A DNA stretch of 64,000 bases from Paraburkholderia youngii (GTDB taxonomy: Bacteria; Pseudomonadota; Gammaproteobacteria; Burkholderiales; Burkholderiaceae), in contig NZ_JAALDK010000003.1 in NCBI RefSeq assembly GCF_013366925.1, forward strand, positions 508,465 through 572,464, given 5' to 3'. A program made the translations under genes and the position numbers. The notes below the pieces were generated by a model, which saw only the letters and a program-made list of their open reading frames with translations, was not told where the DNA came from and ran no database searches. This document shows, piece by piece, positions 11,078 through 64,000 of the stretch; positions within the stretch are counted from its first letter, which is position 1, and the number at the start of each line of letters is the position of its first letter.

Positions 11078-11204
11078 CTAAACCTCGTCAGAATTTGCAG
11101 GCTATACCCAGCAATATGCCAGGTCTCTGCAATTCCAACAACACGATTTCCGCCGGAAACCCCCAACGCTTAAGGCTCTACGGTTTGTTCAGGCTGGACT
11201 AGCG

Positions 11205-12724
11205 AGGGCGTGGCTCGCGTGACTGTGGCGCATCCAGTGCGGACTCGCGATACCCGCGTCGCCGTCTTCGCCCAGACTCGCGACCAGTGATGTCTTCGGG
11301 TTCCAGCGTTGTGGCGTGACAGGCAGGCGTCGCTGTGCAAGGTACTGATCGAGCGCAGTACGCGCGACCGGCGGCAGTGCCACCTTGCCGGGCTTGCTGC
11401 CCTTGCCGACCAGATGCAGCCAGTGATCACCGTGCCCGTCCACGCGGATGCTGCCGACCCCGGCGCCGACCAGTTCGCTCGCGCGCAGACCCGTCGCGTA
11501 GCCGAAGTCAAGCAGGAAGCGCAGCCGCTGCGCCGCTGGCTCCGACCAGCCATAGGACCCTCCGAGGCCGTCGGCAATCGCGCGGACCAGCAGCCACTCA
11601 CCCTCGGTGAAACCGCGCGTCGTGTCCAGCGCTGGCTGCGAGGCGTGGCCTCGGACCTTGACGCCGGAAAACGGATTGGCGAGCACGTAACGCTGCTCGA
11701 TCAGCCAGCGAAACAGCGCCGAGAGCACCGTCAGTGCGTAGGCTGCTGAGCGCGCTGACAGGCCGCTCGTAAAGGGGCGCCATTTGACGGAATCGCGCGG
11801 CCGCGGTGGCCCGACCCAGCGCTCGCGCGGCGCCGGACGTCTCACGAACGCCCGGTAGGCGATCGCGTCGTCGGTTGTCAGTGACGACAGCGCCCGCCCG
11901 CGTTCGACGATCGCCCACAGGATCAGCCGCTTGGCCTCCTTGCGATAGGCGCGCTGCGTCGTCGCTGTTTCGTGCAGCGCAAGCCACGCCTGTACCGCCT
12001 CGTAATCGTTCGTCGCGTTCAGCGTGCAGGCATTACGCGGCGCCCGGAAACTGCCCTGCAAGCCATCGACCTCGTGCGGCAGGCGCAACTCTTCCCACGG
12101 CACGATGCTGCGTGGCTGGGTGACCGCGACCAGTGCGCGGGCGCGCTCGGTCAACAGCGGATGCCCGGCGAAGAAGGCTTCGACTTGCCGAGCCCCCATC
12201 GCGCCGAGCCCCTCGATCGTTCGCCACCATCCGCGCCGTCGCGGGATGCGTACGGTCAGTTCCGAGAGCGTATGGATGCCGTGTGCACGCAGGGCATTCG
12301 CGGTCCGGGGTGCGAGCCACCGTTCAATGTCGTCGCTGATCTGGGGCTGTGGCGCATTCACCGAGGGCAACGTCCTGAGCGCGTGTTCAACTGCCTTGGC
12401 TCGCCCCTGCCGCTCTTGGGGCGTGTGCTGGAATACCGCCGCCAGATCCAGTCGATGGCGGCTTTCGGCGAACGCGATGAGCTGCCGGCGGATGCGGCCG
12501 AGCATGCCACGTGCGGACTGGCCCGACGCCTTGAGGCCAGGCAGGTAGCGCAGGACGGTTGCACGTGAACTGAGGCCTGCATACCAGCCACGCAGCGCGG
12601 CCAGCGCATCGGCATCCGGGAACCCGGGTTCGGCAGGCGTCGCGGCCGGGGGCGCCGGGGCAGACGCGTCTTCATCGGTTGAGGTTACGTACGTAAAATT
12701 AAGATGGTAGCCCGATAATATCAA
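11205..12724 (-). pseudogene. Transposon-encoded tyrosine recombinase, interrupted and internally deleted
   Basis: This is a phage-integrase-type recombinase with a DUF3701-like N-terminal domain (FPDADALAALRGWYAGLSSR), a SAM-like core-binding region and the catalytic domain (Arg in TGLRASELVG, HWMRHSH box). It probably resolves Tn3 cointegrates. Compared with the related copy at 59091-60826 it lacks about 37 codons between GEDGDAGI and ASPHWMRHSH, which removes part of the catalytic fold. The last 44 codons are displaced to 6976-7110 by an IS5-family insertion. The start at 12724 is the outermost possible one. Confidence 0.85.
12685..12696. promoter_or_regulatory. Perfect palindrome in recombinase/transposase divergent region
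   Basis: TTACGTACGTAA is a perfect 12-bp palindrome between the divergent recombinase and transposase starts. That is where Tn3-family elements usually keep their resolution site and operators. Its role is inferred from position only. Confidence 0.4.
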
Positions 12725-49590: not shown

Positions 49591-50301
49591 TCAGTGAAAC
49601 GGCGAACTAGCCATGCAGCAATGCTTGTACTTGTGGCCACTACCGCACGGGCACGGCTCGTTGCGCCCGATCTTCGGTTCTTCTCGGCGCATGGGCATAC
49701 GCGCCGGGATGTGCGCCAGTGCCCGCCGATGCGGCTCGAAGTAACGGTAGATATGGGTCAGTCCGGCGATCATCGTTTCCAGCAGTTCCTCGCGCTTTTC
49801 TGCCGGGATCTGTGGTGGCCGCATCTGCGGGTCGGGATTGTGCTCATGATGCAGCATCATGATCGGGATCATCGGTCCACCGTGGTCCTCGTCATGGATC
49901 AGCTCACCCCAGCTCGCGGGACGCATCTGTACGCCGCGCATGAAGCCGTGTGCCCAGTCGTTGGCCGGGGCAACACCATCCTCTCGCTCGAGCAACACAG
50001 GCAGGTACACGTTCGGCTCATGCAGCGTTTGCTGCAATTCCGTGCTGATCGTGTTCCAGTGACGCATGAGCAGCTCGACGATTTCTGTGGCCTGTCCGTC
50101 ACTTTCAAACGAAAAATCTTCCCCCCAGATCTGCGGCAGATACTCGCTGGGAAACACGATGTCTGGCCCGCAAATCAACGCGACGAAATAGCCGTCGAGC
50201 GTTTCGATGTTCATCGCTGCATCGCCGATGGAGTCGAGAAACCCGGCGAGACGGGCGAAATCGTCGTCGGCAAGCGGTTGTTGGGACGTCAGGTTATTCA
50301 C
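49591..50301 (-). CDS. UPF0149/YecA-type protein with SEC-C zinc motif
   Basis: The protein has about 236 residues, starting at a GTG (50301) that gives VNNLTSQQPLADDDFARLAG. It has the YecA/UPF0149 fold (FLDSIGDAAMNIETLDGYFV, WAHGFMRGVQMRPASW) and ends with a SEC-C zinc-binding motif, GRNEPCPCGSGHKYKHCC. SEC-C proteins interact with the ribosome or Sec machinery. The function of this stand-alone type is not known. It is intact and lies just behind the Tn21-like transposase. Confidence 0.8.
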   Translation of the reverse strand: MNNLTSQQPLADDDFARLAGFLDSIGDAAMNIETLDGYFVALICGPDIVFPSEYLPQIWGEDFSFESDGQATEIVELLMRHWNTISTELQQTLHEPNVYLPVLLEREDGVAPANDWAHGFMRGVQMRPASWGELIHDEDHGGPMIPIMMLHHEHNPDPQMRPPQIPAEKREELLETMIAGLTHIYRYFEPHRRALAHIPARMPMRREEPKIGRNEPCPCGSGHKYKHCCMASSPFH

Positions 50302-50402
50302 GGCAGATTTTCTCTTCGCGAGGTCGAGGCGGCTATAGCCGATGATTATACGATGTTGAGCTCGTCGGGTATGGCGGCAGGATCGATCGCCCCTGTGGCA
50401 GT

Positions 50403-53392
50403 TCACGAGGGGCGCCGAATGCGCGGCTCTGTCCCCGGCAGCGGCCGCAGCGCCCTGAACTTGCCGGCCTGAAGCTTGCGATCTTGTTGCCAGACATAGT
50501 CGCCCATCAGGTTGATGTGTTCCCAGCCAAGCGGTGACAGATACGGCAGCAGCGTAGCGTCGGCCGGTACACCACGGGCGTGCATGGTCTGTACAGCCCG
50601 CTCGAGGTAGACGGTGTTCCACAGCACGATCGCGGCGGTGACCAGATTCAGACCGCTGGCGCGATAACGCTGCGCCTCAAAGCTACGATCGCGGATTTCA
50701 CCGAGGCGGTAGAAGAACACCGAGCGCGCAAGCGCATTGCGGGCCTCGCCCTTGTTCAAGCCGGCATGAACGCGTCGGCGCAGTTCGACGTTCTGAAGCC
50801 AGTCGAGAATAAAGAGCGTGCGCTCGGTGCGGCCGATTTCCCGCAGTGCGACAGCGAGTCCGTTCTGTCGCGGATAGCTGCCAAGCTTGCGCAGCATCAG
50901 CGAAGCCGTGACGGTGCCCTGCCGGATCGACGTCGCCAGACGGAGAACCTCGTCCCAGTTCCTCCGGATGTGCTTTTCGTTGTACGTGTCGCCGATCATT
51001 GAGGCAAGCGCAGGATAATCCTTAGGATTGCCTGGCACATACAGCTTCATATCGCTGAGATCACGGATCCGTGGCGCAAACCGGAAACCAAGCAGATGCA
51101 TCAGCGCAAAGACGTGATCGGTAAATCCGTTGGTGTCAGTGTAATGTTCCTGGATGCGCAGATCTGACTCGTGATACAGCAGTCCGTCGAGTACATAGGT
51201 CGAATCGCGCACACCGACGTTCACGAGGTTCGGATAGAACAGCGCGTACTGGTCGGAGATGTGCGTGTAGAACATGCGTCCGGGCTCGGCGCCGTATTTC
51301 GGATTCGCGTGTCCCGTGCTCTCGGCCTTGCTGCCCGCACGGAAGCGCTGCCCATCGGATGACGAGGTGCTTCCGTCGCCCCGGTGGGCGGCGAACGGAT
51401 GGGCGAACTATGCGTTGACGAGTTCAGCCAGCGCCTGTGAGTAGGTTTCGTCCGGATGTGCCACGCCTGCAGCCACGACAGTTTCGCGTAGGTGGTACCG
51501 GGGCAGGCCTCCGCCATCTTCGTCAGTCCGAGGTTGATCGCGTCGGCCAGGAGCGTCGTGAGCAGCAGAGTCTTGTCTTTCGCTGTCTCACCGGTCTTCA
51601 GGTGCGTAAAGTGGCGGGTGAAATCGGTCCACGCATCAACCTCCATCAGCAACTCGGTGATTTTCACGCGCGGCAGCATGACCGATGTCTGGTCAATGAG
51701 TGCCTGGGCCGCCTCGGGTACCGCGGCATCGAGCGGCGTCATTTTCAGGCCCGATTCCGTGATGATCGCATCGGGCAGCCCGTTATCGGCGGCGAGGCGG
51801 TTGACGGTTGCCAGTCGCTGCTCTAGCAACTGCCGCCGCTCCTTCAGGTAACGGTCGCAATCAGCGATGATCGGCAGCGGCAAGACATTGCCCTGCATGA
51901 TCGCTTGGAAATTCACTGTCGGCAGGAGGTAGTCGTCAAAGTCCCGGAACTGGCGTGAGCCCTGCACCCAGATGTCGCCTGAGCGTAGCGCGTTCCTCAG
52001 CGCGGCGAGCGCGCACAGTTCGTAGTAACGGCGATCGATACCGCTGCCGGGCATCACGAGTGGTTTCCAGCGTGGCTTGACGAAGGCGGTGGGCGCGTCA
52101 GCAGGCATTTTTCGCACTCCGTCGTTGTCCATGGCGCGGATCGTATCGACGGCGTCAAGCACATCCGTCGCCGCAGGAGCAGCACGTAATTTCAGGATGT
52201 CCAGGAAGGCCGGGGCGTACCGGCGCAGTGTCGCATAATGATCCCCGATCTGATGCAGAAAATCGAACGCTTCGGGCTGGGCAAGCTGCTCGGCTTCGCT
52301 GACGCTTTTCGTGAACGCCTCCCACGACATGACGGATTCGATCGCCTTGAACGCGTCGCCGCCGTTTTCCTTGGCTTCCAGCAGAGCCCGGCCCAGCTTC
52401 CCGTACAGTCTCACCTTGTCGTTGATGGCTTTTCCCGAACGATGAAACTGCTCCTGATGCTTCTTTTTCGCGGCATTGAAGAGCCGTCCGATGATGCGGT
52501 CGTGCAGATCAACGATCTCGTCAGTGACCGTCGCCGTAGCTTCGATCACGATGGCCACCAGGGTGGCATGACGGCGTTGCTTTTCGAATCTGGCCAGGTC
52601 GGCCGGCGTCATCTGCGCGCCTTCGCGGGCGATCTTGAGCAGACGGTTCCGGTGCACCATCCGGTCGAGGCCCGCGGGCAGGTCAATGGCGTGGAGGATT
52701 TTGAGGCGGTCGATATGCTTGAGCATCTGGCGTGAACTCGCCTTCCCCGGCGGCAGCCGCAGCCATGCGAGCCATGTCATGCGGCCGTCATCACGGCGCG
52801 TCAATAGCTGGTCGAGTCTTGTCCGGTGCTCATCCGACAGTGATAACGTAAGAACATCGTAGATGCGGCGGGTCGCGCGGGTGACGGCCTCCGCGCAGAT
52901 CCGCTCAATCACGTTCGCGCCGGGCAGCAGGATTGCCTGTTGGCGCAGGTATCCGACCAGCGCCTGCGCGAGCACCAGGCCTTTGTCGGTCTGCATCGCC
53001 AGATCAACAATGGCCTGCACGGCCGGACGGTAGTCACGCACTGTGAGCAATCGCAACTGCAGCGCGGCCTGCAGTTCGAGCAGATGTTCGCGACGCGTCT
53101 GGTCCCGCCTTGCATACTCTTTCCAGAGCATCGGTTCTATGCTGAGCTGCCCGGCAACGTACTCCAGCAGCGCAGGCGGCGGTTCGACGCCTGCGCCTAG
53201 GATAATCCCCGGATAGCGCATGCAGCAGAGTTGGACGGCGAAACCCAGACGGTTGGCCGGGCCCCGGTGCTGGCCGATCAGCGAGAGTTCCGCTTCGTTG
53301 AATGTGTAGTGGCGGATGATCTCATCATGGCTCTCCGGAAACGAGAAGAGACTGTCGCGCTCGGCAGGCGAGAGAATGGAACGTCGTGGCAT
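50403..53392 (-). pseudogene. tnpA: Tn21-like Tn3-family transposase TnpA with two lesions
   Basis: It is nearly complete, at about 990 codons. It starts [20 protein letters not shown], the Tn21/Tn501-type N-terminus; a GTG at 53449 is an alternative start. The catalytic residues are readable: Asp in [10 protein letters not shown], Asp in [14 protein letters not shown] and Glu in [11 protein letters not shown] one-base deletion near 51453 ([11 protein letters not shown]) and a TAG near 51409 (NA-stop-F, usually NAQF) break it. Everything downstream is in frame again, so the damage is recent and limited. It belongs with the Tn21-type ends at 47134 and 60893. Confidence 0.9.
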
Positions 53393-53449
53393 GGTTGGCT
53401 CGGCAAGGGGCGGGGATGGTGCCGACAGGGTTTGCGGCACTGATTCCAC

Positions 53450-53895
53450 CGGATTGACGGTTCAGGAAAGCGCAGTGTAATTCGTTCTATCGTCATAATC
53501 CTTCTTATGGCGATAGCAAGTTGTGGTGAAATTGTTTGGTATCGCGTGGCCAACCCATAGCGCATCACCACTGTCGTTCACTGAACGTCAGCAAAGTCGA
53601 CATGCTGTCGATGGATGCGCCCAGCGTATGACAGATCCACTCGTAATGCGTTGAAAAACTCCCTTTCCTGCGCAACCGGACCGGCAGCCGAAAAGTCGGC
53701 CTCTCAGATCGCACTATGCGCCGCTCGTGAGCATCGGTGAAGGTTGAGAGGACACGCCCGTGACGATCGTCGCGCTTGGTCGGCGGGCAAGTCTCATCCG
53801 CTTCCAGCCGATCGTCGGCACTCAAGAACCAGCAGGTCTTCAAAGATGTGCTATCTTGAATCATTGCCCCTGTCACTGCTCTCGGGGAGAAGGAT
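53450..53895. other. Intergenic region upstream of transposase
   Basis: It holds the recombination-core-like site at 53487-53516 and the upstream region of the deaminase-like gene. No gene is supported. Tn3-family transposons usually keep their resolution site and promoters here. Confidence 0.45.
53487..53516. promoter_or_regulatory. Candidate recombinase core site (resolution site)
   Basis: CTATCGTCATAA - TCCTTC - TTATGGCGATAG: two 12-bp arms in inverted orientation with one mismatch and a 6-bp spacer. This is the layout of tyrosine-recombinase core sites. It lies 95 bases upstream of the transposase start. The matching recombinase would be the broken one at 59091-60826. Confidence 0.5.
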
Positions 53896-54432
53896 ATGAG
53901 CTTCAAAACAGCAATAGAACTAACCAAAAAATATTATGGCAACTATCCAGGTCCCACAGAAGAAACCTACGCACTAGCCGAAAAAGTTGCGGATTTTTTC
54001 AAAGAAAACGCGATCTCAGCGGCGGGCGTGATTGCCGTTGCGATCGGCTCGGATAAGTATCATTATCTCGGGCTATCCCCCGCCTTGCAAAAGGCTGTCA
54101 TGACGCAGATGCTTGACGAAGCAGGCGGGTCGGCGTTGGACGGGCACTTTCGACTTGGTAGAGGCCTCGAGGCGTACACTGGCGTGAAATTCGATCTTTC
54201 TCGAAAAGTGTCCACTGATATCGTCGGGAAAGCGAGCTTCAATAAAGGCTGCGCCGAGAAGAAGATTGTCTCGAACATGTATTTGAGAAAGGTCACTCTC
54301 AAAGAGATAAGCGTCATTCCCTTTCCGGAAACGATTTTCGCCGAAAGCATACCGGCCCATATTGTGGTCGCGAGTGCGGACGGGGCGTATATTGCGCCAT
54401 GCGCCACCTGTCTTCAGATTTACCCCGGATAA
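53896..54432 (+). CDS. Deaminase-like protein (CDA superfamily motifs)
   Basis: The 178-residue protein starts at the ATG after GAGAAGGAT. It has an N-terminal helical part (MSFKTAIELTKKYYGNYPGP), then in the second half a C-A-E motif (Cys119-Ala-Glu121 in FNKGCAEKK) and P-C-x-x-C (Pro168-Cys169, Cys172 in APCATCLQIYP). This is the zinc-site pattern of cytidine-deaminase-like enzymes with cysteine in place of the first histidine. Some toxin-associated deaminases (YwqJ type) look similar. The substrate is unknown. The gene's last 51 codons lie in a 264-bp repeat duplicated at 57090. Confidence 0.6.
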   Translation: MSFKTAIELTKKYYGNYPGPTEETYALAEKVADFFKENAISAAGVIAVAIGSDKYHYLGLSPALQKAVMTQMLDEAGGSALDGHFRLGRGLEAYTGVKFDLSRKVSTDIVGKASFNKGCAEKKIVSNMYLRKVTLKEISVIPFPETIFAESIPAHIVVASADGAYIAPCATCLQIYPG

Positions 54433-54541
54433 GAAGTGATCAGTGGCAATTCGAAGGGCCGCTCCAGGACCAATATGCCTTTTGCATGCTCGTTGGTGGT
54501 GTTGTGCGGAGTCGTCGAGCTCATGAGGCAGAATTCGGCCA
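54278..54541 (+). repeat. 264-bp direct repeat, copy 1
   Basis: It is identical to 57090-57353 except for two bases. It spans the catalytic 3' end of the deaminase-like gene plus about 109 bases of following DNA. The two copies bracket the VOC, XRE and epimerase genes. Confidence 0.95.
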
Positions 54542-54611
54542 TGAGCGGCCCCTCGATTCCACCGCCCGGTTGGGGCGCAGCAGCCCCGTCCCAAGTTGGA
54601 AGGAGCCAAAC

Positions 54612-54962
54612 GTGCAAGTCAAACGGGTAGTTGCCAACTTCAAGGCGCTCGATCTTGATCGGGCCCGGGCGTTCTATCGAGATATCCTCGGCCTCGAGCT
54701 TTTGATGGACCACGGGTGGATCCAGACCTATGGTTCTCAGACCGAGATGACCATTCAGGTGAGCTTCGCCGCAGAGGGAGGTTCCGGCACGCCAGTACCG
54801 GACCTATCGATTGAAGTAGACGATGTGGACGCAGCACTTGAACGCATGAAGGCTGCGGGCTTTGCCATCGAATATGGTCCGGTCGACGAACCTTGGGGCG
54901 TCCGTCGGTTCTTCGTTCGCGACCCATTCGAGAAACTGGTCAATATCCTTGCGCACACCTGA
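54612..54962 (+). CDS. VOC-superfamily (glyoxalase/bleomycin-resistance-like) protein
   Basis: The protein has 116 residues. The GTG start follows AAGGAGCC. It shows one complete VOC module pair: VVANFKALDLDRARAFYRDI, LGLELLMDHGW, MTIQVSFAAEGG, PDLSIEVDDVDAALERMKAA and WGVRRFFVRDPFEKLVNILA. Family members bind metal and act as lyases, dioxygenases or drug-sequestering proteins. This one is of the bleomycin-resistance/dioxygenase-like kind and its substrate is unknown. It is part of the repeat-flanked block. Confidence 0.85.
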   Translation: MQVKRVVANFKALDLDRARAFYRDILGLELLMDHGWIQTYGSQTEMTIQVSFAAEGGSGTPVPDLSIEVDDVDAALERMKAAGFAIEYGPVDEPWGVRRFFVRDPFEKLVNILAHT

Positions 54963-55240
54963 GCGCCGTCCACGGGTTGTGCGGAATCGAAGAGGAATTG
55001 ACCGTCCGCTTCGGAGCGCCGCGAATTTCCGCTTCCGGTCGCTCTATGCCGCTTGCATGAAAAGCCGCGCCCGCGGCGATCGCCAGGCTTGGTCGTCGGG
55101 CGCTAGCCGGCCCCGAACGGCCGTTCGCAAGCCGAGCGTTGGTGTCCACAGCCGCTTGCCATATTCGGTGCCTGCAGGGTCCTGAGAGACTCTCGGGAAT
55201 CGAGCTTCGAATGCCTGAACCTGCGTTATTGCGAGCGCCA

Positions 55241-56101
55241 CTACGGCCCTCGCATGTCGGCCGACGGTAGTCGGTTTGACAGCAAGCTGATCTGGGACGC
55301 GATCGTCTTCGCATCCTCCGGCGTCGCGGGATACATGCTGAGATCAGTCCGGCCGTCGACGGAGAAGGTCGAATATTCGAAGGCGAGCGGGCCGAGCACC
55401 GGATGGCGGATGCGCTTGATGACCTCGCCGTGGACCTCTCGAACCTCGTTGTCGCGCCACATCACCTTGAACTCGGGACTGAGCCGGCACAGCTCATCAA
55501 CAAGAGGCGCCACCTCCGTTGCCGCTCCCGCACGCGCGGCATCGACCCGGAATGCACCGATGATGTGGCGCGCGACGCTCTCCCAGTCATACTGCACGGC
55601 GCGCGCACGCGGATCAAGGAAAATAGTGCGCAGCACATTGCGTTGGTTTGGCGGCAGGGAGCCATAGTCGCCCAACATGACAGTGGCCGCCCGATTCCAG
55701 GCAAGGACGTTTCAGGTGGCAGTGCGAATGAGGGCGGGGCTGGGGTCCAAGGCGTCGAGGACACGCTGCAGCCGAGGCGTGACACCTTCCTTCTCTTGGT
55801 AGCGGGCTTCGGGCGGCCGCCCGAGGCCAACTAGAAAAAGGTGCTCGCGCTCGACATCCGTCAGCATCAGGGCCCGCGATATTCGATCGAGCACATCGGC
55901 CGAGGGGGCACCGCCGCGACCTTGTGCGAGCCACGTGTACCAGGTGGGGCTGATATTGGCGCGCTGCGCCACTTCCTCACGGCGCAGCCCAGGCGTCCGC
56001 CGGCGCTCTGCGGGAAAGCCGAGTACTGCGGGATCAAGCTTCATCCGCCGGTCCCGCAAATAGGCGGCGAGGAGGTTTTCGTTGTCCTGGCGCGACTTCA
56101 T
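55241..56101 (-). pseudogene. XRE-family regulator with MmyB-like domain, in-frame TGA
   Basis: One frame of 287 codons is interrupted only by a TGA at 55712-55714, where the family has Trp (RTAT-W-NVLAWNRAA). It has an N-terminal helix-turn-helix (RRTPGLRREEVAQRANISPT, WYTWLAQGRG) and a C-terminal MmyB-like ligand domain (RNVLRTIFLDPRARAVQYDW, LAFEYSTFSVDGRTDLSMYP). It is divergent from the epimerase gene by 92 bases, the standard layout in which such regulators control a neighbouring oxidoreductase. It is either a point-mutated pseudogene or read through. Confidence 0.85.
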
Positions 56102-56193
56102 GCTGTTTGTAGTCTTACCATGATAATGTCACTACTTTACCGGAACACTCGCAAAGCTGAGACTTGTCTCCAGCGAAAGTTGGAGACAGGTTC

Positions 56194-57078
56194 ATGCGCG
56201 TTTTCATCACCGGCGCCACCGGATTTATCGGCATTCCCACCGTTAAGGAACTGATTGCTGCGGGAGATAAGGTTCTCGGCATGGCTCGTTCAGACGAGGG
56301 AGAAAAAGCCCTGGCAGCTATTGGAGCAGACGTACATCGCGGTTCGCTTGAAGACCTCGAAAGCCTTCGGAGGGGCGCAGCGGCGGCCGATGCCGTCATT
56401 CACTTGGGCTTTATTCACGACTGGTCCAACTTTGCAAGGTCTTGCGAGGTCGATCGCCGCGCGATCGAAGCTTTGGGCTCAGTCCTCGCTGGCTCAGATC
56501 GGCTTCTGATTGCCACGTCGGGGACGGCAGGATTAGCCGGGCCGGGCCAGGTCGCGACCGAGTACGATGACGTGCCGCCAGATTTCCCCTTTCCCCGCGT
56601 CTCCGAGCAGACGGCGCTATCACTGGGAGGCGTGCGCGCCTCGGTGGTGCGGCTTCCCCAAGTTCACAACACAATGCGGCAAGGGCTTCTGGCTTACGCT
56701 GTTGCTGTGGCGCGCGAGAAAGGCGTGTCAGCCTATGTCGGGGAAGGACGCAACCGCTGGGCAGCGGCACACATCTCGGATGTCGCCCGTCTTTACCGGT
56801 TGGCGCTGGAAAAGAACGAAGCGGGCGCGAAATATCATGCGGTGGCTGAAGAAGGCGTGCTGATGCTGAATATTGCCGAAGCCATCGGCCGCGGGCTGAA
56901 AGTGCCCACAAGATCCATATCCGCGGGAGAAGCTTCGACGCACTTTGGTTGGCTGGCAATGTTCGCTAGCCGCGACCTTGTGGCATCAAGCGAAAAGACG
57001 CGGAGGACGCTCGGCTGGACTCCGACCGGGCCCGGGCTGATTGCCGATCTAGAACGGCTTGGCGCCTCGAATAGCTGA
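56194..57078 (+). CDS. NAD-dependent epimerase/dehydratase (extended SDR)
   Basis: The protein has 294 residues from MRVFITGATGFIG, whose GATGFIG (7-13) is the Rossmann dinucleotide site; GGAG lies eight bases before the ATG. Other parts are HRGSLEDLESLRRGAAAADA, VIHLGFIHDWSNF and ATSGTAGLAGPG. The usual YxxxK is not clear: the region reads FPRVSEQTALSLGGVRASVV, an atypical-SDR pattern. It probably acts on a small electrophile or sugar. It is intact and ends 11 bases before the second 264-bp repeat. Confidence 0.85.
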   Translation: MRVFITGATGFIGIPTVKELIAAGDKVLGMARSDEGEKALAAIGADVHRGSLEDLESLRRGAAAADAVIHLGFIHDWSNFARSCEVDRRAIEALGSVLAGSDRLLIATSGTAGLAGPGQVATEYDDVPPDFPFPRVSEQTALSLGGVRASVVRLPQVHNTMRQGLLAYAVAVAREKGVSAYVGEGRNRWAAAHISDVARLYRLALEKNEAGAKYHAVAEEGVLMLNIAEAIGRGLKVPTRSISAGEASTHFGWLAMFASRDLVASSEKTRRTLGWTPTGPGLIADLERLGASNS

Positions 57079-57089
57079 AGCATGCAGGC

Positions 57090-57353
57090 TGTATTTGAGA
57101 AAGGTCACTCTCAAAGAGATAAGCGTCATTCCCTTTCCGGAAACGATTTTCGCCGAAAGCATACCGGCCCATATTGTGGTCGCGAGTGCGGAGGGGGCGT
57201 ATATTGCGCCATGCGCCACCTGTCTTCAGATTTACCCCGGATAAGAAGTGATCAGTGGCAATTCGAAGGGCCGCTCCAGGACCAATATGCCTTTTGCATG
57301 CTCGTTGGTGGTGTTGTGCGGAGTCGTCGGGCTCATGAGGCAGAATTCGGCCA
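57090..57353 (+). repeat. 264-bp direct repeat, copy 2 (truncated deaminase end)
   Basis: This is the second copy of 54278-54541, offset by exactly 2,812 bases. It encodes YLRKVTLKEISVIPFPETIF through PCATCLQIYPG without the upstream C-A-E half, so it cannot make an active deaminase by itself. Confidence 0.95.
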
Positions 57354-57404
57354 GCAGCGGTCCTCTATACCTTGCAGTCGAATGACTGCTTTGTGGTTGC
57401 TGGG

Positions 57405-57821
57405 CTATCGCCCGCTTGCTTTGTCAGCGGCCATCAGTTCTAGAAGATTGCCGTCGATATCGCGAAAGAACACTGATTGACCTGGCTGTCTATCGGCCGT
57501 CATCCGTGCAACCGGACCTTCAAGGATGTTGACGTTTTTTCCTTCGAGCAGGTCGAGCATTTCACTCACCGAGCCATTCCAGCGGAGGCATATGTCGGCC
57601 GCCCCTACCGTTGGGCGCTCGGCGACCAAATCGACCCCGTTGCCTTTTTGATGAATGCTCAGGACCGCGCCGCCGATTGCAAGTTGGCGCACGAGCACCC
57701 GGCCGTCTATGACATGCTCGGCGACGACTTCTGTCCCGAAAAGGTCATCGTAAAATGCACAGCTTCCCGCGAGGTCAGCTACGGTGATAGCAACATGATC
57801 GATTGCAAGGATTCGTGACAT
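57405..57821 (-). CDS. VOC-superfamily protein (glyoxalase-like)
   Basis: The 138-residue protein starts at MSRILAIDHVAITV, with GGAGG five bases upstream. It is a typical two-module VOC: IDHVAITVADLAGSCAFYDD, LFGTEVVAEHVIDG, GAVLSIHQKGNGVDLVAERP, FFRDIDGNLLELMA. The His (in DHVAI) and Glu (in LLELM) metal ligands are visible. Residues such as VARMTADRQPGQSVFFRDID are as in glyoxalase/lactoylglutathione-lyase-like proteins. It is convergent with the repeat and intact. Confidence 0.85.
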   Translation of the reverse strand: MSRILAIDHVAITVADLAGSCAFYDDLFGTEVVAEHVIDGRVLVRQLAIGGAVLSIHQKGNGVDLVAERPTVGAADICLRWNGSVSEMLDLLEGKNVNILEGPVARMTADRQPGQSVFFRDIDGNLLELMAADKASGR

Positions 57822-57940
57822 ACGGACCTCCAAGAAAGGAACTCCAAGAAAGGAACCATCCTATGCGCGAATAGTGAGCTGTGAATTAGAGGGCTACCAT
57901 TTTGGCCAGCGTGATTCCGATTTGGAAAAGCTGCCGCTCA

Positions 57941-58108
57941 TTATCTAGTTGCGACTGACCGAAGAGGGTCGGCATGAGGCATTGGCCAGACGCGTTCCGC
58001 ACGCAGTACGCGAGAGTCGTCCATCGCAGTAAAGCCGCGATCGTTAGGCGCCAGCGGCACCGCTTCGAGGAGATTGTCCAGCAGTTCAACGGGTTTCTGA
58101 TAGCACAT
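57941..58108 (-). CDS. Possible small protein, 55 residues
   Basis: A GGGAGGACGCC site directly precedes the ATG at 58108. The frame reads MCYQKPVELLDNLLEAVPLA, then PNDRGFTAMDDSRVLRAERV, ending SVATR. No family is recognised. The strong ribosome site and protein-like composition support it; the short length and surrounding IS remnants argue for caution. Confidence 0.35.
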   Translation of the reverse strand: MCYQKPVELLDNLLEAVPLAPNDRGFTAMDDSRVLRAERVWPMPHADPLRSVATR

Positions 58109-58358
58109 GGCGTCCTCCCACCAGGGTTCGCACAGTGGTCGAGCACGACGGGTTCCCGACGAGATCGGGCTGTGCGCTGTTGAGAGTATAGGCGCGCGAC
58201 GGCGCGCAGCGGTGATTGGGTTGTAAGCTTGGAAGGTCGACAGTGAGCGACCGAAAGAGCGCGTTTTGACGTCACTAGCTGCCGGATGGACTAGAATGGC
58301 ATCGCGCCAGATCGCACAAAGCCTTGTGGAACGGGGCTTTGGCTGACTTCAGCCAAAA

Positions 58359-59006
58359 TTGCACAATGAAACCGCTTGCTTCATGGCCGCCTACAACGCG
58401 CGATTCGCGAAGCCGCCGCGCAGCGCGTTCGATGCACACTGGCCGTTACGGGCTGACGAGAGTCTGGATCTGGTACTCACGTGGCGCGAGCCGCGCAAGG
58501 TCACGAAGGCGCTCACGGTGCAGTACGACCGCGTGCTGTACCTGCTGGATGACACGCCTGAGCACCGCAGGCTGATCGACCGGTACATTGAGGTCTGGGA
58601 GTATCCGGATGGCCGTATCGAGCTGAGGGCCGATGGACGCCTACTGACCTGCCGGCAATATGACCGGCTTGCTGAAATCGATCAGGGCGCGATCGTTGAA
58701 CACAAGCGTCTGGCTCACGTCCTTCAGGTGTCGCAGGCGATCCAGGCGCAGCGCGATAACCGGCGCATTGGCAAGGCGCCCTCACGGACTCACCGGGGTG
58801 CCGAAACCCGGGCTCAAGGCACTTCGCCAGGCAAACAGAAGCAACGTGAATTTACGCAGGCCGATGTTGAACAGGTGATCGTAGATCTGGCGCAACAAAG
58901 AAAGGGGCCAGTTCAGTCACGCAAACCTGGCCGTCGGTCTGCAAGGGATCTCGCAGCAGACGTCAGGGCCCTGCCCGTTCAGGCCCCATCCTTCGACACT
59001 ACGTGA
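58359..59006 (+). pseudogene. ISNCY-family transposase, C-terminal part
   Basis: It encodes RFAKPPRSAFDAHWPLRADE, LDLVLTWREPRKVTKALTVQ, VWEYPDGRIELRADGR and KKQREFTQADVEQVI-type endings (here KQKQREFTQADVEQVIVDLA), the C-terminal domain of ISNCY transposases. The N-terminal and catalytic parts are missing. A following segment with two GGCATTTGAATCTGGC-like motifs (about 59040-59090) may be the IS end. Confidence 0.75.
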
Positions 59007-59090
59007 GGACAAACCCATCAGATACGGACCCTAATCCCTCCAAACGAGGACATTTGAATCTGGCTGGAAAGCGGGCATTTGAATCTGGCA

Positions 59091-60826
59091 ATGACACAAG
59101 TTTTAGACGATAAACTGTCAAACATGAAAACGCGTCAGTCCCTGCACACCTCGCATTCCATCCCGGCCGAACCGTCAGCGTTTCCGGATGCTGACCGACT
59201 TGCGGCGCTGCGCGGCTGGTATGCTGGCCTGTCCTCGCGGGCCGCCGTGGACCGCTACCTGCCCCACGTCCGGGCGCCGGGTGAATCGGCGCGCGGCATC
59301 ATCGGCGCCATCCGCCGTGAGTTTGTTAGCATTGCCCTAGAACGCCAGCGCACCGATCTGGCCGATCTGTTCCAGCACCCTGTCGGTGAACGGATCGAGC
59401 GGGCAGGTGCAATCGCGCACGCGATTGACATCCTGCGTACGCTGCCCGCACCGCAACCGAAAATCGCCGATGACATCGGCCTTTGGCTCGCACCCCGCGC
59501 TGTGCGCGCGCTGCGTGCGTATGGCATTGCGACTCTCGCTGACCTGACGGTTCGCGTGCCCCGCCGCCGCTGGTGGAGCGTAGTGCCGGGGCTGGGCCAG
59601 ACAAGCGCCCGTCAGATCGAGGCGTTTTTTGAGGCCCACCCCAGCTAACGGAGCGCGCCCGGGCGCTGGTTGCGGTAAGCATCCCCAGCGTTGTTGTTCC
59701 CTGGGAACGGTTACGGATACCCCATGAGGTCGATGGTTCGCACGGCAGCTTCCGCGCGCCCCGGCAGGCCTGCGCGCTCGACGCAAACAACGATTACGAA
59801 GCGGTACAGGCATGGCTTGCCCTGCACGAAACCATCGCCACGCAAAGTGCATACCGCAAGGAAGCCGAGCGCCTGATCCTGTGGGCCATCGTCGAGCGCG
59901 GGCGGGCGCTGTCCTCACTCACGACCGAGGACGCCATTGCATACCGCAGTTTCCTTCGGCACCCGCAGCCGCGCGAGCGCTGGATCGGACCGCCACGACC
60001 GCGTAGCGCTCCCGAGTGGCGTCCGTTCGCCGGCAACCTGTCGGCGCGCTCGACCGCCTACGCGCTTTCCGTTCTCGGCGCGCTGTTTCGCTGGCTCATC
60101 GAACAGCGCTATGTGCTCACCAACCCGTTTGCCGGCATCAACGTCCGAGGCAAGACACGCGTGAAACCGCTCGACACGTCACGCGGCTTCACCGAAGGCG
60201 AATGGGGGCTGGTTCGCACGATCGCCAACGGACTGGAGTGGTCCTATGGTTGGGGAACACTGGCCGCACAGCGATTGCGCTTCCTGCTCGACTTCTCGTC
60301 CGCGACAGCCCTGCGGGCAAGCGAATTCATTGGCGCGAGACTTGGGGACATTCGTACGGGTGCAGACGGCGCCCATTGGCTCAACCTCGTCGGTAAAGGC
60401 GGCAAGGCTGGCAAGGTAGCGTTGCCGTCACTCGCCCGAACCGCACTCGAGCAGTATCTTGTCCAGAGGCACCTGCCGGTGACGCCGCAGCGCTGGGATC
60501 CAAAGACCCCGTTACTGGCAAGCGTTGACGAGGAAGGCGCAACAGCCATCACCCGTTCCCGACTGTGGTATGTGTTGCGTCGATTTTTTCATCTGGCCGC
60601 CGATGTCATCGGCACCGATCATCCCGTGCTGGCCGAAAAGTTGCGACGCGCCAGTCCCCACTGGACACGGCATACGCACGCCACGCATGCACTCGCCCGC
60701 GGCGCGGAGTTGACGGCGGTACGCGACAACCTTCGGCACGCCTCGATTGCGACAACCTCGATCTATCTCCAGGGCGACGAAATCAAACGCTACCGGCAGA
60801 TGGACGAGGCGTTCGCCGCACCATAG
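59091..60826 (+). pseudogene. Transposon tyrosine recombinase with one frameshift
   Basis: It is related throughout to the recombinase at 11205-12724. It starts MTQVLDDKLSNMKTRQSLHT and has a DUF3701-like N-terminus (FPDADRLAALRGWYAGLSSR). A frameshift at about 59645 (IEAFFEAHP) is the only lesion. The second part is complete: Arg in TALRASEFIGARLG, the HWTRHTHATHALARG box and Tyr in TTSIYLQGDEIKRY. It ends 30 bases before the Tn21-type end at 60893, mirroring the position of its relative in the transposon at 6916-15794. Confidence 0.88.
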
Positions 60827-60855
60827 GCGGGAACCCAAGCTGCGGGTTTCATCCG

Positions 60856-60893
60856 CTTAGCGTGCTCTATTTTCTGTTTCCTGAAGCGAGCCC
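60856..60893 (-). repeat. Tn21-subfamily terminal inverted repeat (right)
   Basis: Read inward from 60893 it is GGGCTCGCTTCAGGAAACAG, then AAAATAGAGCACGCTAAG, matching the full Tn21/Tn501 end with a few changes. It pairs with 47134-47171. The five bases outside (AAATA) do not match those outside the left end (TCCTT). Confidence 0.85.
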
Positions 60894-61540
60894 AAATAGA
60901 GTATCTGCGAGAGTGATAGCTGCGGGCTCAGCGCCTGATCTGCTGCATATGCCTCGAGCCGCTCCCACGATCTGGACTTGTCATTTAACGCGTCGACGTG
61001 CAGCCGAGGGAAGTCGGCGTCCTCAAGAAGCGTGTGCAGGATGCGTCCGAGCCGCGGCAGGCGGCGGCCCCTTTCGCCAACGCCGCCCCCTGATCCCGTC
61101 GAGCCGCCCGGCCGTGCCGCACCTTCATGCAGGTCCAGATAGTCAAGCGCGTCGGCCACCGGTCTGAGCGGATTGTGCTGGCCTGGCCGCGCGCAATCAC
61201 CGGCCGGCCCAACGTTTTCCGGCTCCGGTGTCTGCCGGAACGACGCCAGTGCGCAGTGGTGCTCGCCGTACTGGTGCATGCGCACGAAATGACGCGGGCC
61301 GTCTTCACGCACCCGGGCGGTCAACCGCGGCCGGCCACAGGGTGCTCTGACGCAGTCGCACTCGAGCCACAGACGCACATGTCGTCCGTCGTGCATCTCT
61401 TCGAGCACGGCTTCCACGAGTCTGACGTCCTCAGGCCGCACTTGCTGTCCGTCGCCGCAGAACCGCCGCACAGCTGCAGCTTCGTCAGCACTAAGATGTC
61501 GCCTCACCGTCCCGGGGTGATCCCGCTCGACAAGTTCCAT
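60894..61540 (-). pseudogene. Plasmid-type hypothetical protein truncated by transposon end
   Basis: It starts MELVERDHPGTVRRHLSADE at 61540 and contains a Cys cluster (ECDCVRAPCG) and MHQYGEHHCALASF. It reads through to SLSQILYLGSLQETENR, where the last codons are supplied by the transposon end. The natural C-terminus is lost. No family is recognised; a zinc-binding plasmid protein is plausible. Confidence 0.55.
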
Positions 61541-61742
61541 GTTGCGCTCAGTGTGAAGGTCGGACGAGCATCGCGAGGATGTGCACGCTCAGGATCGACA
61601 CCTCGTAGTCACGCAACCAGCCATTCATCTGGCGGGCGAACGGTGGGGTGCATACAGCTGCGCGTGTAGCCGTGTCTGATACAAGTGGTGTCGGTGGCTG
61701 GGACGCGAACGACAGCCGTTCAAGGCGGACGATGCGTGATGA

Positions 61743-62045
61743 ATGGCTGTCGCGCAGGCCAAGAACTGGGGCGAGTTGCAAGTGAAGGGCACCGACGAAT
61801 TCCGCCGGCAGGCGTGGATTGCGGCCGAACTCGCGGGCATCCCGACACGTGGATTCCGGCCGGATGCGCAGGATCGTGCCACGCCGCAGTCGGCGCCCGA
61901 AGCGATGCGTATTGCCGCGGGCGAGCGCGACAGAATGACGATGCCGCGCGTACCAACACGGTCGAGGCGGCGTCGGGCGAGAAGAAGCCCGACCAGCCGG
62001 AGGCTGCCCGCGCAAATGCGGCACCGGAAAGGGCTGCGGGGGTCG
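61743..62045 (+). pseudogene. Relaxase-type LPD7 domain fragment
   Basis: It encodes AKNWGELQVKGTDEFRRQAW, IAAELAGIPTRGFRPDAQDR and AMRIAAGERDR. This is the LPD7 segment found near the C-terminus of TraI/MobA-type relaxases of conjugative plasmids. A frameshift near 61930 moves the following ANAAPERAAG-type tail to another frame. Neither the relaxase catalytic part nor other transfer genes are in the window. It is fused to IS sequence at about 62045. Confidence 0.65.
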
Positions 62046-62270
62046 CTGCGCCGCACGGCCGCGATCTTCGCGCTCGGCTATCACACGGTGCGTCGCTGGT
62101 GGCGTTGGCTGGCCACGCAGAACGAGAACTTCTCTTTCCATCTGCGCAGCCGGTTCGCATCGCTCGGACGCAGTGCCGATCGCACCGGTTTCTGGCTTGC
62201 CTGTTTCCAGCTGATGCCCTTGTGCGAGGCAATGGGATGGCTCGATGACGACGGCGTTGCTGTCCCGTGA
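62046..62270 (+). pseudogene. IS-associated DUF6431-type protein, C-terminal part
   Basis: It encodes LRGSLRRTAAIFALGYHTVR, RWWRWLATQNENFSFHLRSR, TGFWLACFQLMPLCEAMGWL and DDDGVAVP. This resembles the small zinc/HTH protein that precedes a DDE transposase in some Burkholderia insertion sequences. The N-terminal half is missing. The transposase follows at 62402. Confidence 0.6.
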
Positions 62271-62401
62271 TCGACTGATGCCCGTGCGTTGCGCGACGGC
62301 GCTGTTCGTGCTGTAACGGGCACCCCACACAGTCTGCTCACTGCCCGGCGTCGCGCATTGGCGGTTTCATACGGGTTCCCTCAACTCTCGAAGGAGAACG
62401 T

Positions 62402-63193
62402 ATGATCGAAGTCGATCCGAAGGCGCTGTTTCGCCTGTCGGTGCTCGGTCCGCTCGTCAGCCGCGAACGGTTGGGCCGCGGCGAGCTGCTGCAGATCGTG
62501 CAACAGCTCGCGCAGCAGGAATACGCCATCCCAGGCTCGCGCCGACGGCATATCAGCGAGAAGACGCTGCTCAAGTGGTACTACGCATGGCGACGTGAGG
62601 GGCTGACGGGACTTGCCGATCGCGCCCGCACGGACATCGGCCGCTCGAAGCTGCCCGAGCCTGTACAGACCGCCGTGCTCGCGGCCAAACGCGAGAACCC
62701 GCGACGCTCGATCCGCCAGATCCGGCTGTTGCTGGAGGCGGCCGGCATCGTGCCGCACGACACGCTCTCGCGCTGCGCGGTACACCGTCTGCTCAAGGCG
62801 CACGGCATCTCGCGCATTGCTGGCCCCGATGTCGTGCCCGAGGAGAAGCGCAGCTTTGAGGCCGAGTATGCCGGTTCGATCTGGTACGGCGATGTGCTGC
62901 ACGGCCCGACACTGTCCTTCGGCGGCCAGCGCACGAAGACGTACATTGTGTCGTTGATGGACGACGCCTCACGGCTCATCGCCCACAGCGCGTTCTGTAC
63001 CTCGGAGACGGCGCTGGACATCGAGGGCGTGCTCAAACAGGCGCTGCTCAGGCGTCGTGTGCCGAAGACGCTCGTCGTCGATAACGGCGCCGCCTATCGC
63101 GCCTCAACGCTGCAGGGCATCTGCGCGCAGCTGGCGATCCGGCTCGTGCATTGCCGGCCCTATGCACCCGAAGGCAAGGGCTGCGCTGCATAG
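62402..63193 (+). pseudogene. DDE (rve-type) transposase, C-terminally truncated
   Basis: The 263 codons start MIEVDPKALFRLSVLGPLVS after GAAGGAGAACGT. Two helix-turn-helix parts (ISEKTLLKWYYAWRREGLTG and RSIRQIRLLLEAAGIVPHDT) are followed by the integrase core: IWYGDVLHGPTLSFGG (first Asp) and KTLVVDNGAAYRAS (second Asp). The frame stops just after RPYAPEGKG, where the family continues to the third catalytic Glu. The truncation coincides with the end of the serine recombinase gene region. Confidence 0.8.
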
Positions 63194-63222
63194 TGCACCT
63201 CATAGGTCGGTTGAGTTGGTGT

Positions 63223-64000
63223 TTATGCGGCCGAGCGTCGGCCACGGGTCTTTCCCTGGTGCTGGAATTTCACCGGCGCTTCGGCGCCGGGCGGTTCGAA
63301 GAGATAGCCGCCCTTGTCGTCGTAGCGATGCGCTATAAGCAGGCCTGCACGACGCCATGTCTTGATTGTCGTCGGCATCACGTTCAACCGCTCTGCGATC
63401 TCGTCCAGGGTGAGCATTCCGCGTGCGCGCAGCCTGTCATGATGACTGGGTAGCTTGTGGGATAGTCGAAGCCGCGTGATCATTCTGGAAGTAAACCGCT
63501 TGCCCCAGCCGGAGGCGAGCCCCTGACGGTTAAGCTGCTCTGCCGTTTCACTCTCGGTGTACTCGTTGAGAAGCCGGTCCATTTCGGCAATGACTGCGCG
63601 AGGGGTTTGCCGCAATATCCACGCCGGCTTGGACAGCGGCACATGTAGCGTATGCGTGGCGCCGCCATTAAAGCGTATCTGAACGCAGATGTCTGCACCC
63701 TTGAGCAAAGTCGCGTCGGCGATGAGCAGTCGCGCCATGCGCTTTCGCTCGCGATCCGGTGTGCGCGGATCGTTCCATAGACGAGGGAAGTCTCTGGCGA
63801 GTGTCATGATGTTCGCACGCTGTTTATCGTTAAGTCCTGCGCGATCAGCTTCGCGCTGCTTTTCGTAGTGATCCTGAGCTTCGGTAAGAGCGCGTAGCGC
63901 CTGATTCCATTCCGATTCAAGCGAGTCCGCGACCAATCGATTCGCTGGATCCACTTGCATATAGCGGCGCCGCGCCAGATCGGCCTCGTAGCGTGCTCGT
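63223..64000 (-). CDS. Large serine recombinase, C-terminal part (continues beyond window)
   Basis: The readable part has a coiled coil (LESEWNQALRALTEAQDHYE), then DKQRANIMTLARDFPRLWND, RERKRMARLLIADATLLKGA, NGGATHTLHVPLSKPAWILR and an HTH near the end (LTLDEIAERLNVMPTTIKTW). It ends HQGKTRGRRSAA. This is the typical C-terminal half of transposon- or phage-type large serine recombinases with the zinc-ribbon and coiled-coil region. The catalytic serine domain lies outside the window. The frame is open to the edge. Confidence 0.85.
   Translation of the reverse strand, partial: RARYEADLARRRYMQVDPANRLVADSLESEWNQALRALTEAQDHYEKQREADRAGLNDKQRANIMTLARDFPRLWNDPRTPDRERKRMARLLIADATLLKGADICVQIRFNGGATHTLHVPLSKPAWILRQTPRAVIAEMDRLLNEYTESETAEQLNRQGLASGWGKRFTSRMITRLRLSHKLPSHHDRLRARGMLTLDEIAERLNVMPTTIKTWRRAGLLIAHRYDDKGGYLFEPPGAEAPVKFQHQGKTRGRRSAA

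Follow-up and report, generated by a model that had tools for sequence, protein, structure and literature searches.

The window analysed here is a 64,000-nucleotide stretch of Paraburkholderia youngii DNA (C3:508465-572464 of genome G000). It holds a deaminase-like gene whose 3′ end recurs downstream, beyond a VOC gene, a regulator gene and an epimerase gene. The two copies form a 264-bp direct repeat (54278–54541 and 57090–57353, both on the forward strand) with two mismatches and a start-to-start distance of 2812 bp; by alignment the repeat extends to 274 bp at 98% identity, and its length and identity are far above chance. In its own genome (9.5 Mb, 4 contigs) it occurs at only these two places, and it had no match in the plasmid collection. 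A sequence-only reading of the locus had described this repeat and the CAE/PCxxC protein whose end it copies, both correctly. It had taken the protein for deaminase-like and the arrangement for one typical of toxin diversification and composite cargo capture; as a whole, that interpretation is partly supported. The right end of the 264-bp repeat falls within a dispersed repeat of about 130 bp, here called repeat E, whose rows look like an unrecognised gene-shuffling system across Paraburkholderia.

The deaminase-like gene (53896–54432, forward strand) is whole and encodes 178 amino acids, with CAE at residues 119–121 and PCxxC at 168–172. The first repeat copy runs from codon 128 to the stop codon and then through 109 bp of non-coding DNA to end at ...TTCGGCCA. 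The CAE motif is therefore not duplicated, and of the catalytic end that had been proposed to be copied only the PCxxC part recurs. Because the second copy begins at codon 128, beyond the CAE, it cannot form an active site; it is best described as the remnant of a second deaminase unit rather than as a toxin tip, and it has no evident function.

The product of the intact gene is probably a stand-alone enzyme of the cytidine-deaminase (CDA)-like fold, as judged from fold and motif prediction, and its activity would follow from these. CAE and PCxxC were invariant in all 15 aligned rows of the family, in agreement with the [HC]AE/PCxxC signature of CDA-fold deaminases. Fold comparison gave cytidine and blasticidin-S deaminases as the best matches, with 88–93 residues aligned in the top eight rows; these enzymes and the window's protein have the CAE...PCxxC motifs and the order of helices and strands in common, but the latter has a long N-terminal part and matched no family model above cut-off (best TIGR01354, E-value 0.094). 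The top Foldseek match, to the GTPase Era, was not believed. By sequence, the best match in the PDB was DBH (DNA polymerase IV; E-value 0.0056), and the search returned 12 chance-looking matches up to an E-value of 1. Relatives were rare: none of 25 pattern matches in viral contigs was confirmed, and 1 of 16 in genome contigs was (L034, a Rhodobacteraceae bacterium). A PADLOC scan of three proteins returned no family. The protein belongs to a rare family without a name, which matched no Pfam model and is open to assay.

The three genes that had been read between the repeat copies are all present, although the regulator is broken. The VOC (glyoxalase superfamily) gene (54612–54962, forward strand; PF00903) has a putative GTG start, placed by comparison with genome G071 (L030). 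It is followed by the XRE/MmyB-type regulator gene (55241–56101, reverse strand), which is interrupted by one in-frame stop and is intact in G046 (289 amino acids), and, divergent to it, by the SDR/epimerase gene (56194–57078, forward strand; PF01370; putative ATG start). At 57079–57089 the XRE-SDR unit is cut short, and codon 128 of the second deaminase copy follows. Beyond that copy lies a second VOC gene, VOC2 (57405–57833, reverse strand; PF00903). A truncated VOC2 copy of 96% identity is found elsewhere on the replicon (L027 4075–4551; G000:C3:629074-629550), cut at its left by DNA ending CAGACCTTCCCTAG.

A covariance model of repeat E (R1), built from 26 copies, placed four copies beside these genes, all on the forward strand. 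E0 (53693–53847; 38.2 bits, E-value 1.9e-9) is degenerate and lies upstream of the deaminase gene. E1 (54452–54578; 25.9 bits, 1e-5) begins 20 bp past the deaminase stop, and E3 (57264–57390; 30.7 bits, 3.7e-7) lies within the deaminase remnant. The full copy is E2 (55022–55150; 118.6 bits, 8.6e-34), of which 55037–55112 had been recognised by BLAST as part of a dispersed repeat in 45 of 144 genomes. The units of the window meet inside these copies: E1 meets the VOC unit at CGGCCA, the VOC unit meets the XRE-SDR unit at CGGCC in E2, and E3 meets the VOC2 stretch that follows at CGGCCA. Both copies of the 264-bp repeat end at TTCGGCCA, after which different flanks keep the E arm motif; this end is, judged from the alignments, an E junction. 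The left end of the second repeat copy showed no feature of E.

Repeat E is widespread in the genus. R1 matched 133 of 144 Paraburkholderia genomes, P. youngii included, at an E-value of 0.001, and by our reading of the table about 118 of them at 1e-5. Copy numbers per genome are lower bounds, since 23 candidates were scored in each. Among 250 genomes of the order (13 candidates scored), the P. youngii genome alone matched at 1e-5 and none of the other 249 did; for the nearest sister genera this survey is a weak test of absence, because only 6 of the 250 genomes are listed under the same family and the thresholds differ (1e-5 versus 0.001). E2 matched two records of the plasmid collection, both from Paraburkholderia. 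No known RNA family was found in 50000–64000 at the gathering threshold. A literature search, with subscription papers mostly outside its scope, retrieved no recognised description of such a Paraburkholderia repeat.

When blocks of DNA common to different genomes were mapped against 98 R1-supported E sites, counting reciprocal pairs, 22 of 34 nearby block starts lay no more than 2 bp from CGGCCA, where 1.1 would be expected, and 16 of 62 block ends lay as close to the end of GGGTCG, where 1.9 would be expected; both expected counts assume an even spread over ±80 bp. Counted by distinct E, the figures were 14 of 20 and 8 of 15, respectively. These R1-supported sites replaced an earlier test with a loose pattern (1049 sites), in which 34 of 397 ends fell within 3 bp versus a mean of 7.4. 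Of the eight left boundaries displayed, one (L136) diverges inside the left arm and all others at CGGCCA. Six of the ten right boundaries displayed lie at GGGTCG or up to 11 bp from it, one lies 19 bp on and three are inside genes. The cleanest block (L144/L145, from G156 and G174) is 1,299 bp long and 98.4% identical and extends exactly from CGGCCA to GGGTCG; the DNA outside it differs, and in both genomes a new CGGCCA follows 29 bp on. The pairs L142/L173 (99.6%) and L134/L135 (98.2%) diverge at the same CGGCCA left end, and their other ends lie beyond the stretch compared.

The units of the window also occur in other genomes. In G071 the VOC stretch (54534–55112) has a counterpart of 98.6% identity, set between unrelated flanks and extending from TTCGGCCA to CCGGCC. 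DNA matches to the XRE-SDR pair are found in many Paraburkholderia (65–96% identity), and the pair stands in other surroundings in G046 (96%) and G036 (92%); the block common with G046 starts at CGGCC, and that with G036 starts 10 bp inside the same arm. The unit in the window stops 11 bp past the SDR stop codon, while by eye G046 continues to an E-like right end. A second copy of 55037–57052 lies on the same replicon (C3:186163-188182; 99.75% identical) and has the same premature stop, and its copying must therefore postdate that mutation. Different DNA precedes it up to the GGGTCG arm of E2, where it starts, and neither copy of the 264-bp repeat is present there. This second copy (L026 2950–6183; G000:C3:184949-188182) is split near its 3′ end by an IS (insertion sequence)-like insert of about 1.2 kb, which by eye has CTAG on both sides and, like the DNA cutting the truncated VOC2 copy, ends in CAGACCTTCCCTAG.

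In other genomes E occurs in rows. Seven copies (E-values up to 0.0053) lie on one strand within 9.1 kb in G054:C28, and five (up to 0.012) lie upstream of a VgrG gene on a P. sabiae plasmid, where the outermost E copies enclose seven annotated genes, all on the same strand; this annotated row (L102) has one or two genes per E interval. Of neighbouring E pairs up to 5 kb apart, 37 of 42 had both members in the same orientation (E-values up to 0.05), as did 25 of 29 at 0.001, leaving out L096, L100 and L136, which repeat another stretch, and one overlapping reverse-strand match in L109 (E-value 0.023). Seven open reading frames (ORFs) of the G054 row included a DUF6630 protein, an Imm35 protein (above cut-off), a HEAT-repeat protein and a Tsi6 match just under cut-off, and genes of this row were found singly in other genomes. 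Two stretches are candidate orphan-immunity rows: L100 5645–10332 (G054:C28), with small same-strand genes for Imm35, Tsi6-like and DUF6630 proteins separated by E, and L102 5093–8421 (P. sabiae pPs24235_1), with a DUF4304 gene upstream of a type VI secretion system VgrG gene. The cargo as a whole looks mixed. Among 96 E-adjacent ORFs, picked by a rule similar to a codon-GC one that had picked genes poorly, and some of them perhaps not real genes, the 25 of 68 matched families listed included LysR (4), GNAT (3), Imm35 (2) and many singles. One Beta-lactamase family match (PF00144) and one chromate transporter were also among the families listed.

Taken together, we consider it reasonably probable that the 264-bp copy is what remains of a second cassette-like unit, composed of the deaminase gene and E, in a row of such units. 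The order of the row would be E0-deaminase-E1-VOC-E2-XRE/SDR-[deaminase remnant]-E3-VOC2. As the boundaries show, units meet inside E, with cross-genome blocks usually starting at its CGGCCA end and often stopping at its GGGTCG end; the boundaries also suggest that units are exchanged by recombination at E, through some enzyme or through general machinery. A deletion, here or before arrival, may then have fused the 3′ end of the SDR gene with the second deaminase gene at codon 128; in it the second deaminase unit would have lost its front half, and the XRE-SDR unit its right end. On this account no toxin mechanism is needed for the repeated gene end.

Several observations weigh against this account. 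Of the block boundaries, 46 of 62 ends lie more than 2 bp from GGGTCG and 12 of 34 starts more than 2 bp from CGGCCA, in a count that is not a random sample because loci were chosen for E or for one row and reciprocal pairs were counted. Conservation of the arms draws BLAST alignments outward, and the comparison therefore fixes the arms and not the exact crossover base. E0, E1 and E3 are diverged copies, and R1 gave no score to the E-like right end in G046. Unlike the genes of same-strand rows, the two genes of the XRE-SDR unit are divergent, and VOC2 is in reverse orientation. Among the genomes searched, none had two whole deaminase units or the deaminase-E-VOC2 arrangement alone, the form that relatives lacking the block, as sought by the sequence-only reading, would have. 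The arms of E pair by conservation only: covariation was not found in the 96 copies tested (98 minus two that copy others in the set), with 807 paired cells versus a shuffle mean of 810, and only E1 folded better than its shuffles (z = −2.8, versus 0.2 for E2 and 0.4 for E3). E as a structured RNA or DNA is accordingly not supported, for lack of covariation.

A broader proposal is that Paraburkholderia has its own genus-wide gene-cassette system, in which units of one or two accessory genes, with CGGCCA...GGGTCG arms and short loops between them, would be disseminated and lined up in rows by a recombinase other than an integron integrase; the window would then be a decaying row with a duplicated deaminase unit. 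We put this forward tentatively, as plausible but somewhat short of probable. In row order and boundaries E may work like a cassette site. The core motifs RYYYAAC and GTTRRRY define attC sites, whose usual length is like that of E; in the same 96 copies of E they were found in five and three, respectively. No integron integrase (TIGR02249) scored over cut-off in any of 18 E-carrying genomes, and weaker tyrosine-recombinase matches were found in all 18 as well as in 14 of 14 controls. E is not filed as attC because canonical cores are rare, no integrase passes the cut-off and covariation is lacking. When R1 was run around ten integrase-like loci no clear E was found beside them (best E-value 0.041), and these recombinases were set aside as the E enzyme; one integrase-like recombinase lies near an E in G164:C156. 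G069, G076 and G173 carry tyrosine recombinases of about 300–345 amino acids, in several copies per genome, with partial integron-integrase scores below cut-off.

E rows nevertheless resemble two described kinds of array. In integron cassettes and in CALIN (PMC8618304), which are attC clusters without an integrase, co-oriented small accessory genes are each followed by an imperfect palindrome, sites are alike within chromosomal arrays while the genes vary, and units recur in other contexts, as with E; the trait of same-orientation units is seen in the 37 of 42 pairs and in L102. Unlike those arrays, E has rare canonical cores, unit boundaries at CGGCCA and GGGTCG and arms without covariation. 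The 18 E-carrying genomes differ from integrons in having no integrase over cut-off, whereas CALIN by definition lack a neighbouring one. The rAID arrays of Bacteroidales (PMC12247911) likewise comprise co-oriented short genes with conserved intergenic motifs, and one E row has Imm35- and Tsi6-like genes while another lies upstream of a VgrG gene. They differ in that no clear E lay beside the ten integrase-like loci, the cargo of E looks mixed (LysR, GNAT and others) and the bacterial group is another.

Alternatively, E could be an ordinary intergenic repeat or miniature inverted-repeat transposable element, with common blocks arising by RecA recombination or by insertion at E. This reading is compatible with the remnant account, and we hold it to be plausible but less than probable. 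The E arms have the look of terminal inverted repeats, E is commonly dispersed, and no dedicated recombinase was identified in the 18 E-carrying genomes or at the ten integrase-like loci. However, scattered insertions would not be expected to give rows on one strand whose intervals hold one or two genes each, or a block such as L144/L145 that is bounded on both sides by E ends between unrelated flanks. In a mobile insertion cassette, inverted ends enclose a passenger gene and no transposase. E units look similar in this, but differ in standing in rows and in lacking, by eye, a target duplication in the displayed block flanks.

The main rival to the second-unit account is a single illegitimate event, in which a template switch at the 8-bp TTCGGCCA led to copying of VOC-XRE-SDR, followed by a switch back 264 bp upstream, with no special part for E. 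The microhomology at the left junction (at most 2 bp at the right) and the mere two differences in 264 bases are consistent with it. Against this, CGGCC(A) is also where the VOC stretch starts in G071 and the XRE-SDR block in G046, neither of them tied to the deaminase, and further units and genomes show this boundary again. A chance hit on an E junction is improbable. We consider this explanation unlikely.

It is very improbable that the repeats are the arms of a loop or composite element, with the block captured and excisable by homologous recombination between the deaminase ends. At 264 bp and 99% identity the repeat has the length that RecA-type recombination requires, and one complete deaminase gene would remain after excision. 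However, the flanking copies are a gene end plus E, not IS elements; known-IS status, which had been raised as a possible objection to the repeat, does not apply. They occur only here in the genome, and the second XRE-SDR copy starts at the GGGTCG arm of E2 without either of them. Toxin-tip diversification, with the second copy as an alternative or silent tip, is hardly credible: deaminase folds are common as toxin tips, and one E row has Imm35 and sub-cut-off Tsi6 matches, but unlike a polymorphic-toxin tip the 178-amino-acid protein is a stand-alone family with no delivery domain matched, the two tips are nearly identical, the second is without CAE, and Imm35 accounts for 2 of the 96 E-adjacent ORFs among the families listed.

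Interest thus shifts from the 264-bp repeat to the genus-wide rows of E. If these do form a cassette system, it would give an entire genus of soil-dwelling, plant-associated and symbiotic bacteria a means of moving accessory genes, immunity-like ones among them, and searches based on integrases or attC would probably miss it. With its site, unit ends and hosts named, the search for an enzyme becomes testable.

Other repeats and mobile-element genes lie in the window. A Tn3-family transposase gene (51221–53449; NCBIfam transpos_Tn3, of which only positions 3–634 of 954 were matched) adjoins the deaminase unit, and a second frame at 50403–51275 looks like a putative other part of it. Upstream of the deaminase gene, 53650–53753 is another dispersed repeat of about 104 bp, found at 69–83% identity in some of the 38 of 144 genus genomes that match 53440–53900. 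Related integrase genes (DUF3701, Phage_integrase) lie at 11189–12724 and, in pieces, at 59079–60826; the two loci share a 1.4-kb stretch at 70% identity.

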